A stretch of DNA of 55,041 nt from Burkholderiales bacterium (GTDB lineage: Bacteria > Pseudomonadota > Gammaproteobacteria > Burkholderiales > SG8-41). The position numbers and the translations under genes were made by a program. Shown in pieces: positions 25,166 to 54,109 of the stretch (position 1 is its first letter; the number at the start of each line of letters is the position of its first letter). Below the pieces are notes generated by a model. The model was given only the letters and a program-made list of their open reading frames with translations, was not told the DNA's origin and made no database searches. Location: assembly GCA_030833315.1 (NCBI GenBank), contig JAURHM010000015.1:1-55041 (forward strand), given 5' to 3'.

Positions 25166-26714
<1,549 letters not shown>

Positions 26715-41443: not shown

Positions 41444-41983
41444 ATGAAGCTGGACGACGCCGGGCTGCTTGCGGAGGCGTGTTATCAGCCTTCTCCCAAT
41501 TGTGACGAACGTCCCGCGGATTCCGGAATCGATCTGCTGGTCATCCACAACATCAGCCTGCCGCCCGGGGAGTTCGGCGGCGACGCCATCGTTGACCTGT
41601 TTCTCAATCGCCTTGATCCGCAGGCGCATCCTTTTTACGAAGGTATCGCGGGTCTGCGCGTTTCGTCGCACTTCTTAATCCGCCGGGACGGCGCACTGCT
41701 GCAGTTTGTGCCATGTTCTAAGCGGGCCTGGCATGCCGGGCTGTCGCAGTGGTGCGGGCGCGATCGTTGCAACGATTTCTCGGTTGGCATCGAACTGGAG
41801 GGGGCGGACGACCTGCCTTTCAGTGATGCACAGTATGAGTGCCTGACCGTGCTGGCGCGTACTTTGTATGACCGATATCCCATCCAGGCCAGTGTAGGAC
41901 ATTCCGACATTGCGCCCGGTCGCAAGACCGATCCCGGTCCGTATTTTTCCTGGACGCGTTATTTCAGTGCGCTGGAAAAATAA
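41444..41983 (+). CDS. ampD: 1,6-anhydro-N-acetylmuramyl-L-alanine amidase AmpD
   Basis: 179 residues, family length. The zinc amidase_2 fold is shown by LLVIHNISLPPGEFGG, AWHAGLSQWCGRDRCNDFSV, GIELEGADDLPF and GHSDIAPGRKTDPGPYFSW. It cuts the peptide from anhydro-muropeptides in the cytoplasm during cell-wall recycling. It lies 15 bp after pilR on the same strand. Confidence 0.96.
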   Translation: MKLDDAGLLAEACYQPSPNCDERPADSGIDLLVIHNISLPPGEFGGDAIVDLFLNRLDPQAHPFYEGIAGLRVSSHFLIRRDGALLQFVPCSKRAWHAGLSQWCGRDRCNDFSVGIELEGADDLPFSDAQYECLTVLARTLYDRYPIQASVGHSDIAPGRKTDPGPYFSWTRYFSALEK

Positions 41984-42214
41984 AATCCTCATAAAAACAT
42001 AGGGTTGCCGTCAGGCGTTGGCCGGAGCTTCCCTGCCTTGGCTGCCGGTCTGTGCACGGCCGCTTCGGCTGGCGCCTGCCCGCCGGGGACGGCGGGGGCA
42101 GCTTTTGAGTTGCCCAATTTTTGTGCAACAAATTCGGTGCTTTACGGCGCTTCCTGCTGTTTCTCAAGAACTTTTAAAAAAAGCGTCAAAACCTATTGCG
42201 GATTCAAAATCCGG
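41984..42214. other. Noncoding stretch between ampD and the nrdA promoter region
   Basis: No gene was recognised here. The left part is GC-rich and coding-like without homology; the right part turns AT-rich (a run of eight A-rich bases near 42175) towards the regulatory boxes before nrdA. No convincing terminator for ampD was found. Confidence 0.5.
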
Positions 42215-42261
42215 CCACTAGAATTCGTCGAAAATAGCGTGTTGACCACTACATGTTGTGG
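42215..42261 (+). promoter_or_regulatory. Pair of NrdR-like boxes upstream of nrdA
   Basis: Box 2, CCACTACATGTTGTGG (42246-42261), is a near-perfect palindrome fitting the known NrdR consensus acaCwAtATaTwGtgt at most positions. Box 1, CCACTAGAATTCGTCG (42215-42230), is a weaker copy whose start lies exactly 31 bp upstream, the three-helical-turn spacing typical of NrdR operators. TTGACC at 42242-42247 overlaps box 2 and may be the -35 element, so binding would block the promoter. NrdR represses ribonucleotide reductase genes when dATP is high. Confidence 0.75.
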
Positions 42262-42340: not shown

Positions 42341-45202
42341 ATGCAAGTCACCGTCGATTCCGCCCAGGCCCGCGCCACCCCACAAGTCAGTGTCAGCACC
42401 GAAGAGGCGGCACGGGAGGCGGTGTATGCGCAATACAAGATCATCCGCCGCAACGGTGCGGTCGTCGGCTTCGAGCCGTCGAAAATCGCCATTGCCATGA
42501 CCAAGGCGTTTATTGCGGTCAATGGCGGGCAGGGTGCCGCCTCTGCGCGTGTGCGTGAGCAGGTTGCCGCGCTCACCGAGAGCGTGGTCAACGCTCTGGT
42601 TCGCCGTCAGCCCTCCGGCGGCACCTTCCACATCGAAGACATCCAGGACCAGGTTGAACTGGCGATGATGCGCAACGGTGAACACCATGTTGCCCGCGCC
42701 TATGTGCTCTATCGCGAAGAGCGTTCGAAGGAACGCGCCCGCCAGCGTGAAGCGCAACCTGCGGCTGTTGCACAGAAAACCCAAGTCATCAACGTCACCG
42801 ACGGCGGTGTAACCCGTCCGCTCGACATCGAACGTATCACGGCTCTGGTTGAAAGCGCTTGCGCAGGCCTCGGCCGTGACGTCAGCGCCCAGCCGATTCT
42901 TGAGGCGATGCAGCGCGATCTTTACGACGGTGTGCCCATCGACGAAGTGCGTAAATCGCTGATCCTCGCAGCGCGCGGCCAGATCGAGCAGGATCCGGGC
43001 TACAGCTATGTCACCGCCCGCCTGCTGATGCACACGATGCGCCTCGAAACGCTGGGTGAGGAAGTCACGCAGGAAGAAATGGCGACGCGTTATGCTGCCT
43101 ATCTGCCGGAATTCATCCAGAAGGGCATCAAGGCTGAATTGCTCGACGAGCGTCTGGGCCACTACGACATGAAGGCGCTGGGTGCCGCGCTCGACGCGCA
43201 GCGCGACCTCAAGTTCACCTATCTCGGCCTGCAGATTCTCTACGACCGTTATTTCCTGCACATCGAAGGCCAGCGTATCGAACTGCCACAGGTGTTTTTC
43301 ATGCGTGTGGCGATGGGCCTCGCGCTGAACGAACCGGAAAGCCAGCGCGAATCGCGCGCTATCGAGTTCTACAACGTGCTGTCGAGCTTCGACCTGATGA
43401 GCTCGACCCCGACGCTGTTCAACTCCGGCACCCGCCGTTCGCAACTCGCCAGCTGCTACCTGACCACGGTCTCCGATGACCTCGACGGCATCTACGAAGC
43501 CATCAAGGAAAACGCGATGCTGCAGAAGTATGCTGGCGGCATCGGCAATGACTGGACCCCCGTGCGCGCGCTTGGTGCTTACATCAAGGGCACCAACGGC
43601 AAATCGCAGGGCGTGGTGCCATTCCTGAAAGTGGTCAACGATACCGCCGTTGCGGTGAATCAGGGCGGCAAGCGCAAAGGTGCAGTGTGTTCCTACCTCG
43701 AGACCTGGCATCTGGACATCGAGGAATTCCTCGAACTGCGCAAGAACACCGGCGATGACCGCCGCCGCACCCACGACATGAACACCTCGAACTGGATTCC
43801 CGACCTGTTCATGAAGCGCGTGATGGAAGCCGGGGAGTGGACGCTCTTTTCGCCGTCGGATGTGCCGGATCTGCACGAGAAATTCGGCAAGGCTTTCGAG
43901 AAGGCCTACTTAGAATACGAAGCGAAGTGCGCCAGCGGCGAAATGAAGCTGTTCAAGAAGGTTCCCGCACTGCAGCTGTGGCGCAAGATGCTGACCATGC
44001 TGTTCGAAACGGGTCACCCGTGGATCACTTTCAAGGATCCCTGCAACTTGCGTTCGCCGCAGCAGCACGTCGGCGTCGTTCACAGCTCGAACCTGTGCAC
44101 GGAAATCACGCTGAACACCGGCCCCGATGAGATAGCCGTGTGCAACCTGGCTTCGGTCAATATGCCGGCGCATCTTGACCTGTCGACCGGCCTGCTCGAC
44201 ATGGAGAAGCTCAAGCGTACGGTCGGCACCGGCATGCGCATGCTCGACAACGTCATTGACCTGAACTTCTACAACGTCAACAAGGCGCGCAACTCCAACT
44301 TCAAGCACCGTCCGGTCGGCCTCGGCATCATGGGCTTCCAGGACTGCCTGCACATGCTGCGCATCCCCTACGGTTCGCCGGCGGCGGTGGAATTTGCCGA
44401 CCGTTCGATGGAACAGGTGACCTACACCGCCTACTCGGCGTCGTCCGATCTGGCGGAAGAGCGTGGCCCGTACTCGACGTTCAAGGGTTCGCTGTGGGAC
44501 CGCGGAATCCTGCCGCTGGATTCGCTGAAGGTGCTGGCGGAAGAGCGCGGCGGTTATGTCGAGTGCGACATGTCCACCAAGCTCGACTGGAACGCCCTGC
44601 GCAGCCGCATCCAGCGTGTCGGCATCCGCAATTCGAACTGCATTGCCATTGCGCCGACGGCGACCATCGCCAACATCACTGGCCTGTCGCAGTGCATCGA
44701 ACCGACCTACCAGAACCTCTACGTCAAATCGAATCTGTCGGGCGAATTCACCGTAGTCAACGAGTTCCTCGTGCGCGACCTGAAGAAACTCAATCTGTGG
44801 GACGAAGTGATGGTTGCGGATCTGAAGTATTTCGACGGTTCTCTGGCGAAGATCGACCGCGTGCCGCCGGATGTCCGCGCCCTGTATGCGACCGCATTTG
44901 AAGTGGATGCGAGCTGGCTGGTGGAATGTGCGGCTCGCCGCCAGAAGTGGATCGACCAGTCGCAGTCGCTGAACATCTACATGGCCGGCGCTTCGGGCAA
45001 GAAACTGGATGAAACCTACAAGCTGGCGTGGCTGCGCGGTCTGAAGACCACTTACTACCTGCGCACGCTGGGCGCGACATCGACGGAAAAATCGACGGGC
45101 CGTGCTGGTCAGCTGAATGCAGTGTCGTCGGACGGTATTGCGACGGAAGAACAACCCAAGGTGTGCTCGATACTTGATCCCGAGTGCGAAGCCTGCCAGT
45201 AA
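42341..45202 (+). CDS. nrdA: Class I ribonucleoside-diphosphate reductase, alpha subunit
   Basis: 953 residues, longer than E. coli NrdA (about 760) because two ATP-cone domains come first: one near residues 25-125 (KIIRRNGAVVGFEPSKIAIA) and one near 145-235 (VTRPLDIERITALVESACAG). The catalytic barrel has the redox cysteines in QLASCYLTTV and HSSNLCTEITLN, and the C-terminal pair in CSILDPECEACQ that regenerates the active site. It reduces ribonucleotides for DNA synthesis with the NrdB radical subunit, encoded 166 bp downstream. AAGGAG precedes the start. Two ATP cones suggest stronger dATP control at the enzyme in addition to NrdR. Confidence 0.97.
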   Translation: MQVTVDSAQARATPQVSVSTEEAAREAVYAQYKIIRRNGAVVGFEPSKIAIAMTKAFIAVNGGQGAASARVREQVAALTESVVNALVRRQPSGGTFHIEDIQDQVELAMMRNGEHHVARAYVLYREERSKERARQREAQPAAVAQKTQVINVTDGGVTRPLDIERITALVESACAGLGRDVSAQPILEAMQRDLYDGVPIDEVRKSLILAARGQIEQDPGYSYVTARLLMHTMRLETLGEEVTQEEMATRYAAYLPEFIQKGIKAELLDERLGHYDMKALGAALDAQRDLKFTYLGLQILYDRYFLHIEGQRIELPQVFFMRVAMGLALNEPESQRESRAIEFYNVLSSFDLMSSTPTLFNSGTRRSQLASCYLTTVSDDLDGIYEAIKENAMLQKYAGGIGNDWTPVRALGAYIKGTNGKSQGVVPFLKVVNDTAVAVNQGGKRKGAVCSYLETWHLDIEEFLELRKNTGDDRRRTHDMNTSNWIPDLFMKRVMEAGEWTLFSPSDVPDLHEKFGKAFEKAYLEYEAKCASGEMKLFKKVPALQLWRKMLTMLFETGHPWITFKDPCNLRSPQQHVGVVHSSNLCTEITLNTGPDEIAVCNLASVNMPAHLDLSTGLLDMEKLKRTVGTGMRMLDNVIDLNFYNVNKARNSNFKHRPVGLGIMGFQDCLHMLRIPYGSPAAVEFADRSMEQVTYTAYSASSDLAEERGPYSTFKGSLWDRGILPLDSLKVLAEERGGYVECDMSTKLDWNALRSRIQRVGIRNSNCIAIAPTATIANITGLSQCIEPTYQNLYVKSNLSGEFTVVNEFLVRDLKKLNLWDEVMVADLKYFDGSLAKIDRVPPDVRALYATAFEVDASWLVECAARRQKWIDQSQSLNIYMAGASGKKLDETYKLAWLRGLKTTYYLRTLGATSTEKSTGRAGQLNAVSSDGIATEEQPKVCSILDPECEACQ

Positions 45203-45368: not shown

Positions 45369-46490
45369 ATGTTGCAATTTGAAGATAGCTCGGCTGCTGC
45401 AACCGGCGCCGTCCTCCAACCCGTTGGTGCCGATCGCGCGTCGGCACCGACCCCCGAGGCGGAAACTGAACTGCGCCGGGTTAATGTTGCCGACAAGCGC
45501 GTGATCAACGGCAGCACCGACGTCAACCAGCTGGTGCCTTTCAAATACAAGTGGGCCTGGGACAAATACCTCTCGGCCTGCGCCAACCACTGGATGCCGC
45601 AGGAAATCCAGATGAGCCGCGACATCGCGATGTGGAAAGACCCTAACGGTCTGACAGAAGACGAGCGCCGCATCGTCAAGCGCAACCTCGGCTTCTTCGT
45701 TACCGCCGACTCGCTGGCTGCCAACAACATCGTGCTCGGCACCTATCGCCACATCACGGCACCGGAATGCCGCCAGTACCTGCTGCGCCAGGCTTTTGAA
45801 GAGGCGATTCACACCCACGCCTACCAGTACATCGTCGAAAGCCTGGGTCTCAACGAAGGCGAGATTTTCAACGCCTACCACGAGGTATCGTCGATCCGCG
45901 CCAAGGATGAATTCCTGATCCCGTTCATCGACGTGCTGACCGATCCGGCGTTCAAGACCGGCACGCCGGAAGCCGACCAGAAACTGCTGAAGAGCCTGAT
46001 CGTGTTCGCCTGCCTGATGGAAGGCCTGTTCTTCTATGTCGGTTTTGCGCAGATCCTCGCGCTGGGCCGCCAGAACAAGATGACCGGTGCCGCCGAACAG
46101 TATCAGTACATCCTGCGCGACGAGTCGATGCACTGCAATTTCGGCATTGATCTGATCAACACAATCAAGATGGAGAACCCGCATCTGTGGACTTCGGAGT
46201 TCCGTGAGGAACTGAAGGAACTGTTCCACAAGGGTGTGGAGCTTGAATACCGTTATGCCGAAGACACCATGCCGCGCGGCGTGCTCGGTCTCAATGCGGC
46301 GATGTTCAAGGAGTATCTGCGCTACATCGCCAACCGCCGTGCACAGCAGATCGGTCTCGACGTTCTGTTTGAAGGCGTCAGCAACCCCTTCCCGTGGATG
46401 TCGGAAATGATCGACCTGAAAAAAGAACGCAATTTCTTTGAAACCCGTGTCATCGAGTATCAGACCGGGGGCGCTTTGTCCTGGGAGTAA
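45369..46490 (+). CDS. nrdB: Class I ribonucleoside-diphosphate reductase, beta subunit
   Basis: 373 residues. Diiron ligands lie in [33 protein letters not shown] and [12 protein letters not shown]; the tyrosine of the HAYQYI segment is in the position of the radical tyrosine of class Ia enzymes. It supplies the tyrosyl radical to NrdA. A strong AAAGGAGA site precedes the start. The 166 bp between nrdA and nrdB hold no recognised feature, and a strong terminator follows. Confidence 0.96.
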
Positions 46491-52012: not shown

Positions 52013-52752
52013 ATTCCGGAGACGAGATGGAACACGACGAATCTCTGGCGAAGGTTTACCGCGCGGCGGCGAATGAGGCGCCGCCGGCGCGACTGGATGC
52101 GGCAATCCGCGCGGCCTCCCGTCGCCAGGCCGGCGCCGGACCGCGGCCGCTGTCCGGGCTTCGCACTTGGCGGGTGCCGGTGTCGCTGGCCGCAATGCTG
52201 GTCCTGTCGGCGACGCTGGTACTGATGATGCGTGAGGAGGGCGCAGACCCGCTGGAGACCGCTCTTGAGCCGGCCCCGCTCCGGGAGTTGGCACCCGGGC
52301 GCCCTTTCGAGCCTCAGGCCCGGTCTGCGGACGCTCAGGCGCCGCTACCGCCGCCCCCGGCAGCGCAATCCCGTGTACGACCGCCCGCCGCCGACATCGC
52401 ACCACCCGCGTCGCTGGCCGCACCCCCGACCGCGCAAAAGGTTTTTGCCGGCAATGCGGAACCGACGCCGCTGGCAGCGCCGCCCGAACCCCGCCGGGAA
52501 GTCGCGGCGATGGCCGAAGCAGCCAGACCCATGATGCGTTCTGCGCCCGCGCCGGCTGCGAGTCCTGCGGCCGCAGCTTCGGCCGCTCCCCCGTTGTGGC
52601 AGGACCTGATCGATCAACCTTCCGACAAATGGATCCAGCGCATCCTGGAATGGCAGCGTGCCGGCCGCAGCGCCGACGCCGTGGCGCTGGTCCGCGAGTT
52701 CCGGCGGCGCTTCCCCGAACAGTCCTTGCCGGCCGAAATCCACCAGCCATGA
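52003..52752 (+). CDS. Single-pass membrane protein with Pro/Ala-rich periplasmic part, possible anti-sigma factor
   Basis: 249 residues. A short acidic/basic cytoplasmic N-terminus (DESLAKVYRAAANEAPPARL, DAAIRAASRRQAG) precedes one membrane helix (VPVSLAAMLVLSATLVLMMR). The remaining ~170 residues are rich in proline and alanine, with a folded C-terminal end (WQDLIDQPSDKWIQRILEWQ, ALVREFRRRFPEQSLP). Start overlaps the sigma gene by 10 bp. The position and topology fit an anti-sigma factor, but no ZAS or other known domain is visible. An ATG at 52027 is an alternative start. Confidence 0.72.
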   Translation: MALNSGDEMEHDESLAKVYRAAANEAPPARLDAAIRAASRRQAGAGPRPLSGLRTWRVPVSLAAMLVLSATLVLMMREEGADPLETALEPAPLRELAPGRPFEPQARSADAQAPLPPPPAAQSRVRPPAADIAPPASLAAPPTAQKVFAGNAEPTPLAAPPEPRREVAAMAEAARPMMRSAPAPAASPAAAASAAPPLWQDLIDQPSDKWIQRILEWQRAGRSADAVALVREFRRRFPEQSLPAEIHQP

Positions 52753-52931
52753 GCCTTGATTCGAAGCCGGAAAAACCCGAGGCCCCGGAACCCTGGCAGT
52801 GCTGCCAAAGTGGCTGCGACCCCTGCATTTATGACCGATACTGGGAAGCACTCACTAACTTTGAAGCGGCTCTGCGGGCTTGGGAGGCACGCCAGATTAC
52901 GCCGCAGGTCGACCCGCAGGATGAATTATAA
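52749..52931 (+). CDS. Oxidoreductase-like domain small protein
   Basis: 60 residues from the ATG at 52749, whose ATGA overlaps the stop of the preceding gene. The protein is the short Oxidored-like motif WQCCQSGCDPCIYDRYWEAL, three cysteine-bearing positions that may bind metal, with a charged tail. The start inside the earlier reading frame is decided by the overlap and by homology. Probably translated together with the membrane protein. Function unknown. Confidence 0.82.
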   Translation: MSLDSKPEKPEAPEPWQCCQSGCDPCIYDRYWEALTNFEAALRAWEARQITPQVDPQDEL

Positions 52932-53190
52932 GTAATTGTTTTAAATTAATTATTTATTAAAATCCCTGCGAAATGAACTTCACGCTGCAATGTGCCTCAA
53001 ATCACTGCTTTTGAACGATAAAGGGCTGGTTTTAAGGCGGTAAAATTTAATTTATGTATTAAATACAGTTACTTATAAAATTTATTGCGCTGCGGCAACA
53101 GGTGCCGGTAAACTTCGCATCCATTTCCTAGTCAGTCGGTCAAACAAAGGTGGAAATCCCCTCTTTTTGGGTTGCGACTTCCGGTTTGAA
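52932..53190. other. AT-rich intergenic stretch
   Basis: No gene was recognised. Base composition falls sharply from the surrounding GC-rich DNA, especially at 52930-52970 and 53040-53090, with runs such as TTAATTATTTATTAAAA. A TTTATG/TATAAA pair with 17 bp spacing occurs around 53053-53081. No inverted terminal repeats or transposase remains were found, so an element insertion is not supported. Confidence 0.5.
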
Positions 53191-53237
53191 CACCTAGAAT
53201 TGGCCAGTTTTTTTGAGTAGCCCACTACCTGTAGTGG
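53191..53237 (+). promoter_or_regulatory. NrdR-like box pair upstream of a lytic transglycosylase
   Basis: Box 2, CCACTACCTGTAGTGG (53222-53237), is an almost perfect palindrome nearly identical to the box before nrdA. Box 1, CACCTAGAATTGGCCA (53191-53206), shares CTAGAATT with the nrdA box 1, and the two starts are again 31 bp apart. The distance from CTAGAATT to CCACTAC is 28 bp in both promoters. Spacing and sequence together suggest the same regulator binds both. Confidence 0.65.
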
Positions 53238-53270: not shown

Positions 53271-53344
53271 GTTACCGTAGCGAGGTAACACCAGATGCAG
53301 CGCCGCGCTCGATGCGTTGGTGCAAACCCGAAAGGAGGTTTTGC
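53271..53344 (+). promoter_or_regulatory. Structured 5' leader with RBS hairpin and overlapping upstream ORF
   Basis: Three hairpins in a row are seen: GTTACC/GGTAAC (53271-53276, 53284-53289), CACCA/TGGTG (53289-53293, 53318-53322) with an inner AGCG/CGCT, and GCAAACC/GGTTTTGC (53322-53328, 53337-53344). The last one contains most of the AGGAGG ribosome site and abuts the GTG start. A 28-codon frame (ATG 53295 to TAG 53381) begins in the second hairpin and overlaps the gene start out of frame. It does not match a riboswitch class I could recognise. Confidence 0.45.
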
Positions 53345-54109
53345 GTGTTTGCAAAATCGATTTCAGAACTATCCCCGATAGGCCGTGTGGCAGCACCGCT
53401 GCCCCGGCTCCGCAAGATCGTCACCCTGGCCGTTTTCTTTGCCAGCCTCTCCGCCCTTACCCTGTTATTGCATGAACGTTACGGCGTCCATTTTATGGAA
53501 TCCGCCTTTGACGTTGTGCAAACAGAAGCCAGCGCCATCTCCGCCCGTGTATTGCCGCAGCCGTATGAGGCCGTGGTCAAGCCGGAGGATGCCCGCCATG
53601 CCGCCCTCGCCGAGTATTTGGCCAAGCGCTTCAAGGTGGCCCAAGACCTGACGCTGGACTTTGTCCGCATCGCTCATACCGAAGGCGCCAAGGTCGGTCT
53701 GGACCCGCTGCTGGTGATGGCGGTGATCGCGGTTGAGTCCCGTTTCAATCCGATCGCCGAGAGCGGTGTCGGTGCCAAGGGCCTGATGCAGATCATCCCG
53801 AGGTTCCACACTGACAAGCTGGCCAAGTTCGGCGGTGAAAAGGCGGTGTTTGACCCCGAGTCGAACATTCGTGTCGGCACGCGCATCCTCAAGGAATACC
53901 TGACGCGCACCGGCAATGTTGGCATCGCGCTGCAGACGTATGCCGGCGCGCTGGGTGACGACAACGACACCTACACCACCAAAGTGCTTAGCGAGAAGCA
54001 ACGCCTGCAGCAAGTCGTGGCCTCGCTGGCCGAACCGTCACCGGCTGCCCCGCGGCTGGTGCAGCGCGTCCGCGTCGCTCACCGCGGCGATTCGCCCCTC
54101 GGCGAATAA
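53345..54109 (+). CDS. Membrane-anchored SLT-domain lytic transglycosylase
   Basis: 254 residues from the GTG at 53345, which has AGGAGG 7 bp upstream; an in-frame ATG at 53312 lacks a ribosome site. A membrane helix (IVTLAVFFASLSALTLLL) is followed by an SLT domain with the catalytic glutamate in DPLLVMAVIAVESRFNP and GAKGLMQIIPRFHTDKLAKF, then AVFDPESNIRVGTRILKEYL. The C-terminal part is basic. It cleaves peptidoglycan glycan strands from the periplasmic face. Its promoter region carries NrdR-like boxes and a folded leader, unusual for such a gene. Confidence 0.9.
   Translation: MFAKSISELSPIGRVAAPLPRLRKIVTLAVFFASLSALTLLLHERYGVHFMESAFDVVQTEASAISARVLPQPYEAVVKPEDARHAALAEYLAKRFKVAQDLTLDFVRIAHTEGAKVGLDPLLVMAVIAVESRFNPIAESGVGAKGLMQIIPRFHTDKLAKFGGEKAVFDPESNIRVGTRILKEYLTRTGNVGIALQTYAGALGDDNDTYTTKVLSEKQRLQQVVASLAEPSPAAPRLVQRVRVAHRGDSPLGE

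Follow-up and report, generated by a model that had tools for sequence, protein, structure and literature searches.

A candidate NrdR operator with nrdA-like geometry before a lytic transglycosylase gene in a Burkholderiales family

The promoter of a lytic transglycosylase gene in a Burkholderiales bacterium carries two NrdR-type boxes arranged as they are before nrdA, the gene for the ribonucleotide reductase (RNR) alpha subunit. The promoter is quite probably an NrdR operator of nrdA architecture, at which NrdR-ATP/dATP would repress the transglycosylase together with nrdA. This reading, put forward in the initial annotation, is partly supported, by conservation before orthologues, by the presence of nrdR and by a strict search pattern that otherwise finds only nrdA; the supposed independence of the two boxes and the generality of the arrangement are not supported. 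If true, DNA-precursor supply would be linked to wall remodelling through a conserved pair of NrdR boxes before the gene of a peptidoglycan enzyme.

Two promoters of one geometry

The window, meaning the whole stretch of DNA analysed (55,041 nucleotides), is a single contig of a 3.1 Mb draft genome in 105 contigs. Its closest named records, at 60-93% protein identity, are mostly metagenome bins of Betaproteobacteria/Burkholderiales. The coordinates and distances first given for the boxes are exact: CTAGAATT starts at 53194 and CCACTAC at 53222, 28 bp apart, and the same 28 bp separates the corresponding starts at 42218 and 42246 before nrdA. Taken as 16-bp units (Table 1), the boxes have an offset of 31 in both promoters, which corresponds to a common 15-bp linker and lies within the range of NrdR-regulated promoters (15-16 bp, or about one extra turn). 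The transglycosylase pair consists of two 16-bp palindromic boxes and scores 37.0 against an nrdA-derived matrix; box 1 alone is degenerate. It overlaps the polymerase site, holding TAGAAT with the -35 hexamer 17 bp 5' of it, ahead of a putative start. The geometry of the two promoters is identical, as claimed, but the two boxes are not independent evidence, because CTAGAATT contains the -10 TAGAAT and doubles as the -10 in both promoters. Box 1 has CACC in the window, as against CCAC or CTAC in most other genera, and in many relatives outside the window's genus it reads CCACTAGAATTNGCC or CTACTAGAATT. For nrdA box 1, a relative (G013) provides further evidence, with CCACTAGAATTCGTGG at a distance of 31 bp from a box 2.

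Table 1. Features of the transglycosylase and nrdA loci in the window
Feature	Position	Strand	Basis or remark
nrdA -35 hexamer, TTGCGG	42196-42201	+	17 bp 5' of TAGAAT
nrdA NrdR box 1, CCACTAGAATTCGTCG	42215-42230	+	contains -10 TAGAAT (42219-42224)
nrdA NrdR box 2, CCACTACATGTTGTGG	42246-42261	+	
nrdA, ribonucleotide reductase alpha subunit	42341-45202	+	NF005544, 1729.1 bits; PF02867
nrdB, ribonucleotide reductase beta subunit	45369-46490	+	NF005550, 690.6 bits
Transglycosylase -35 hexamer, TTGCGA	53172-53177	+	17 bp 5' of TAGAAT
Transglycosylase NrdR box 1 (candidate), CACCTAGAATTGGCCA	53191-53206	+	degenerate, overlaps -10; nrdA matrix score, relatives
Transglycosylase -10 hexamer, TAGAAT	53195-53200	+	exact in 60/67 orthologous promoters
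T-run between boxes, after putative start	53208-53214	+	orthologue promoters compared with nrdA
Transglycosylase NrdR box 2 (candidate), CCACTACCTGTAGTGG	53222-53237	+	matrix score, orthologue conservation
Leader hairpin, GTTACC/GGTAAC	53271-53289	+	many orthologues
Shine-Dalgarno sequence, AAAGGAGG	53331-53338	+	GGAG invariant in 62 aligned leaders, nearly all anchored on this motif itself
Inverted repeat at the start codon, GGTTTTGC, GTG-containing loop, GCAAAATC	53337-53358	+	exact pattern search
Lytic transglycosylase, SLT domain	53345-54109	+	PF01464, 73.5 bits, E 1.3e-20; starts of relatives

The transglycosylase belongs to the SLT family by its catalytic domain. Its protein of 254 residues, with an N-terminal hydrophobic stretch judged by eye, matches PDB chains that include Slt70, MltC and EmtA; a search against NCBIfam found no family that reaches its cut-off. 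Translation likely starts at GTG 53345 behind the Shine-Dalgarno sequence rather than at ATG 53312. The window's own genome encodes NrdR (TIGR00244, 196.7 bits against a cut-off of 124.65), and nrdR is present in 69 of the 74 family genomes, 68 of them above that cut-off. Directly 5' of the nrdA promoter lies an Amidase_2-family gene (41444-41983), a member of a wall-enzyme family.

Specificity and conservation of the box pair

Eighteen nrdA promoters from other families than the window's supplied the box matrices. These promoters had been retrieved by a search pattern derived from the window's two promoters, their identity as nrdA promoters being established afterwards, so the matrix leans towards the window promoters and is not wholly independent of them. 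It places strong pairs in the window only at nrdA (43.9) and at the transglycosylase, and the remaining matches listed, at 29.0 or less, only repeat these two sites, read from the opposite strand or shifted by a single base. Twenty mononucleotide shuffles of the window, one strand each, reach at most 3.8 against the 37.0 of the transglycosylase pair, which bears out the claim that this pair is unlikely by chance. The second transglycosylase gene of the window (26191-26712, minus strand) has no pair.

Within the same genome, exact CCACWANNNNTWGTGG occurs only in the nrdA and transglycosylase promoters. Single boxes are not enriched, reversed-pattern controls being higher in nearly every genome: with one mismatch allowed, the window's genome has 5 sites versus 110 for the reversed pattern, and single boxes number 0-10 per family genome versus 4-54. 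The flanks of three one-mismatch box sites in the window's genome contain no strong pair (best 5.9). The signal resides in the box pair plus promoter context, rather than in a single box. A strict pattern (TAGAATT, 18-22 bp, box 2) searched in 250 genomes of the order gives 29 matches in 25 genomes, 25 at nrdA, 4 at the transglycosylase and none at any other gene, with none for the reversed control; as only 25 of the 250 genomes are matched, the search supports specificity, not sensitivity. Likewise, the 132 pairs scoring at least 15 in 575 kb of fetched loci lie near transglycosylase starts (77) or nrdA starts (55), with none elsewhere in those loci, which are redundant, counted on both strands and mostly fetched for nrdA or the transglycosylase.

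To judge from orthologous promoters, the box pair at the transglycosylase is a trait of the window's family. Orthologues at E ≤1e-38 are found in 67 of the 74 family genomes (one promoter per genome), and box 2 was sought at any offset of 16-69 from a box 1 set at the -10. It scores above 0 in 55 of the 67 promoters, where the best shuffled sequence reaches 0.9; three of these scores are borderline (0.9, 1.4 and 2.3), and the counts are not independent because the sequences are related. Conservation before orthologues thus leaves the proposed shared control unrefuted. The offsets among the 55 are 31 (42 promoters), 33 (1), 39 (1), 40 (9) and 41 (2), and box 2 occurs in eight of nine genera, at 40-56% protein identity to the window's transglycosylase. 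The 12 failures among the 67 are L073, L074, L136 and the truncated L131 (g8); L075 (g1); L078 and L127 (g4); L121, L145 and L146 (g2); L135 (g3); and L154 (g9). L135 and L154 fail for want of TAGAAT, yet show box-like sequences.

Information content follows the same elements. Over 39 sequence clusters from genera other than g6, g8 and g9, ten of these clusters coming from a single genus, the mean per base reaches 1.33 bits at the -35, 1.39 at box 1, 0.60 in the linker and 1.00 at box 2, as against flanks of 0.10 bits upstream and 0.14 downstream; TTGC of the -35 reaches 1.8-1.9 bits. Conservation of box 1 is confounded, because the clusters were aligned on TAGAAT. Outside TAGAAT, box 1 has about 1.06 bits over ten columns (computed from rounded values), and CCAC 5' of the -10 is conserved at 0.6-1.8 bits.

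Generality beyond the family was not borne out: 52 more distant transglycosylase loci yield one weak pair (L113, 13.9). These 52 include L023, whose upstream sequence is that of the box-less f1 locus L073, and a distant locus, L028, which at -3.0 is not counted as a pair though flagged by the shuffle rule. A separate scan of L118-L120 found no pair, and the remote matches L047-L049 lie outside the 52-locus count.

Linker shift, T-run and leader

Eleven g9 loci and the single g6 locus make up the group with offsets of 39-41. About one extra turn between the boxes of the transglycosylase pair (linker 23-25 bp) is seen at L079, L122, L139, L144, L148, L149, L151, L153, L155, L156, L157 and L158. 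The nrdA pair, sought at any offset of 16-60, lies at 31 in 18 of 18 genomes (12 g9, 4 g8, 1 g6 and 1 g1), so the helical turn appears to have been gained at the transglycosylase alone, probably in one inherited event. The g9 genomes are a natural experiment on helical phase inside one regulon, with the transglycosylase pair shifted and nrdA not. Excerpts of one study report that NrdR accepts about one extra turn between boxes, in Streptococcus pneumoniae and in vitro, and that an E. coli reporter is derepressed with linkers of 18-24 bp and repressed with 26 ± 1 bp (PMC12051234). The S. pneumoniae nrdDG and nrdHEF linkers of 24-26 bp in the same excerpts have about one extra turn, like those of g6 and g9; unlike S. 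pneumoniae, g6 and g9 have the longer linker, of 23-25 bp, at the transglycosylase only, and nrdA keeps 15 bp. The commonest linker in g9, 24 bp, is marginal by the E. coli reporter as excerpted (PMC12051234), and because it is derepressed there, NrdR control in g9 may be weakened or lost. A TA centre and a perfect inverted repeat are found in several g9 boxes. In g8 the transglycosylase pair is lost although nrdR and the nrdA pair are kept in four of four genomes, which suggests that the control is dispensable.

A T-run distinguishes the transglycosylase promoters from those of nrdA. At least four T starting 7-9 nt after the -10 are present in 46 of 60 transglycosylase promoters, versus 0 of 25 nrdA promoters within 20 nt after the -10. 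If the start is assumed to lie 6-7 nt beyond the -10, the 5' end of the transcript would fall near (A)GUUUUUUU, as in UTP-dependent reiterative initiation. Such initiation is described, in the excerpted text of PMC6245113, at E. coli pyrBI, codBA, upp and carAB, where a T-run also comes right after the start, here a putative one; unlike those genes, the transglycosylase lies outside pyrimidine metabolism, and slippage is a candidate drawn from its sequence. UTP-sensitive slippage at the T-run is possible; it would be simpler to read the run as bending the DNA between the boxes or as easing promoter escape. It is unlikely that the promoter integrates nucleotide pools, with NrdR reading dATP/ATP, a UTP-sensitive T-run and a start-codon hairpin that gates translation. 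Were this the case, production of the wall-cutting enzyme would be confined to conditions in which deoxynucleotide demand and ribonucleotide supply permit it.

The exact pattern of the start-codon repeat occurs at 63 places in 59 of the 74 family genomes, and its reversed control at none. Four places, apparently unrelated, have no start codon in the loop (G007:C8, G021:C52, G306:C146 and G028:C51); as G021 has no other place, the repeat is found at the transglycosylase in 58 of 74 genomes, twice in G285. The loops measure 4-8 nt; from genus to genus the arms hardly differ, but the length of the loop and the place of the start codon do. The GTTACC/GGTAAC hairpin is kept in three readable g8 leaders that lack boxes. 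Across 62 leaders (of the 67, one truncated leader and four lacking the start motif were left out), 95.7% of stem cells are paired versus 27-49% in slid versions, with shuffles averaging 95.2% and 9 of 500 reaching the observed value; only four cells are changed on both sides, which 30 of 500 shuffles reach. On these figures, covariation is not counted as proof of the stems. RNAalifold retains only the start-codon stem, without covariation. That the leader might contain a riboswitch or another element known to Rfam was considered and rejected: at gathering score, Rfam finds nothing in the leader and only a tRNA elsewhere in the window. At E up to 5 it gives one lncRNA match (52735-52837, minus strand, E 3.2), below gathering and outside the leader.

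Proposed control, its parallels and its alternatives

In the mechanism that we infer, box 1 covers the -10 and box 2 would lie at roughly +15 to +30 of the putative start, with the 15-bp linker between them. At high dATP, NrdR carrying both ATP and dATP would occupy the two boxes and shut out RNA polymerase. A fall in dATP would release nrdA and the transglycosylase from repression at the same time, and the wall-cutting enzyme would rise with RNR demand. The purpose would presumably be to match wall cutting to DNA-precursor demand. An E. coli study, seen in excerpt, describes changes in the cell wall when NrdR is overexpressed (PMC4898720), the bearing of which is indirect at best.

The nearest parallels are the E. 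coli nrdAB, nrdHIEF and nrdDG operators, which likewise have two 16-bp boxes, a 15-bp linker, overlap with the polymerase site and nrdR in the genome. The transglycosylase differs from them in that the gene is not an RNR gene, box 1 is degenerate, and a T-run and conserved leader coexist with the boxes. The CT centre of its box 2 is AG on the other strand and equals the centre of E. coli nrdAB box 2, described in excerpts of PMC12176259 as a non-canonical AG centre that is bound well within the box 1+2 pair. The accessible literature passages present NrdR as repressing RNR genes, and topA is the only other direct target that appears in them. Pseudomonas aeruginosa topA is, like the transglycosylase, a non-RNR gene with an NrdR box (excerpts of PMC4409342); it has one box, is activated and acts on DNA, whereas the transglycosylase has two boxes over the -10 and acts on the cell wall. 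Within open-licence PMC text, as far as its passages extend, no paper was found that names a transglycosylase as an NrdR target, although an earlier prediction is possible, and papers containing both “NrdR” and “lytic transglycosylase” have the terms apart in those passages.

The two promoters could share only their core (TTGCGA/G, 17 bp, TAGAAT), the downstream palindrome being a structured RNA leader rather than an NrdR site. CTAGAATT does contain the -10 in both promoters, downstream hairpins are kept where boxes are lost, the window leader folds with a z of -2.55 and a stem around box 2 (3 of 200 shuffles are as good), and the perfect inverted repeats of several g9 boxes occur at an unusual linker. 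However, conservation of box 2 does not follow an RNA stem, because its positions 5 and 12 are non-complementary in 37 of 55 promoters (A/A 28, many of them close relatives, T/T 6, A/G 2 and C/A 1), complementary in 17 and G/T in one; the same mismatch rejects box 2 as an RNA hairpin. These positions are also non-complementary at some nrdA boxes. Moreover, the CCAC 5' of the -10 is conserved, the box agrees with those before nrdA in other families, the offsets cluster at 31 and 39-41, and the leader matches no Rfam family. An RNA leader in place of an NrdR site is improbable.

Two further explanations accept the boxes and deny co-repression. NrdR might bind and activate, or only modulate, the promoter, much as P. 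aeruginosa topA expression goes down in an nrdR mutant and with a mutated box (excerpts of PMC4409342). This outcome is decidedly improbable, given that topA has one box whereas the transglycosylase has two, with box 1 over the -10, and that NrdR boxes at RNR promoters overlap the polymerase site (PMC12176259, in excerpt). Alternatively, a promoter copied from nrdA, 11 kb away, could have left the boxes as a functionless relic, as the shared core hexamers, spacing and box offset might indicate. This is very hard to credit when box 2 persists across the genera at the protein divergence given above, amid poorly conserved flanks, and when the linker, with its T-run, is not nrdA-like. With the T-run and the start-codon inverted repeat, the transglycosylase promoter is not a copy of that of nrdA.

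Other fetched loci also carry NrdR-type boxes. At L181 and L183 a box precedes an ORF whose start resembles the nrdA ATP-cone by weak tblastn similarity, perhaps another RNR class. A strong NrdR pair (46.6) occurs at L187:1501-1547 in G010, where the fetched stretch lacks nrdA similarity and the side on which nrdA would be expected holds an ORF that by eye resembles a transposase gene. L007, a metagenome bin titled Bordetella parapertussis, has the transglycosylase and promoter of the window's family, and its label looks doubtful.
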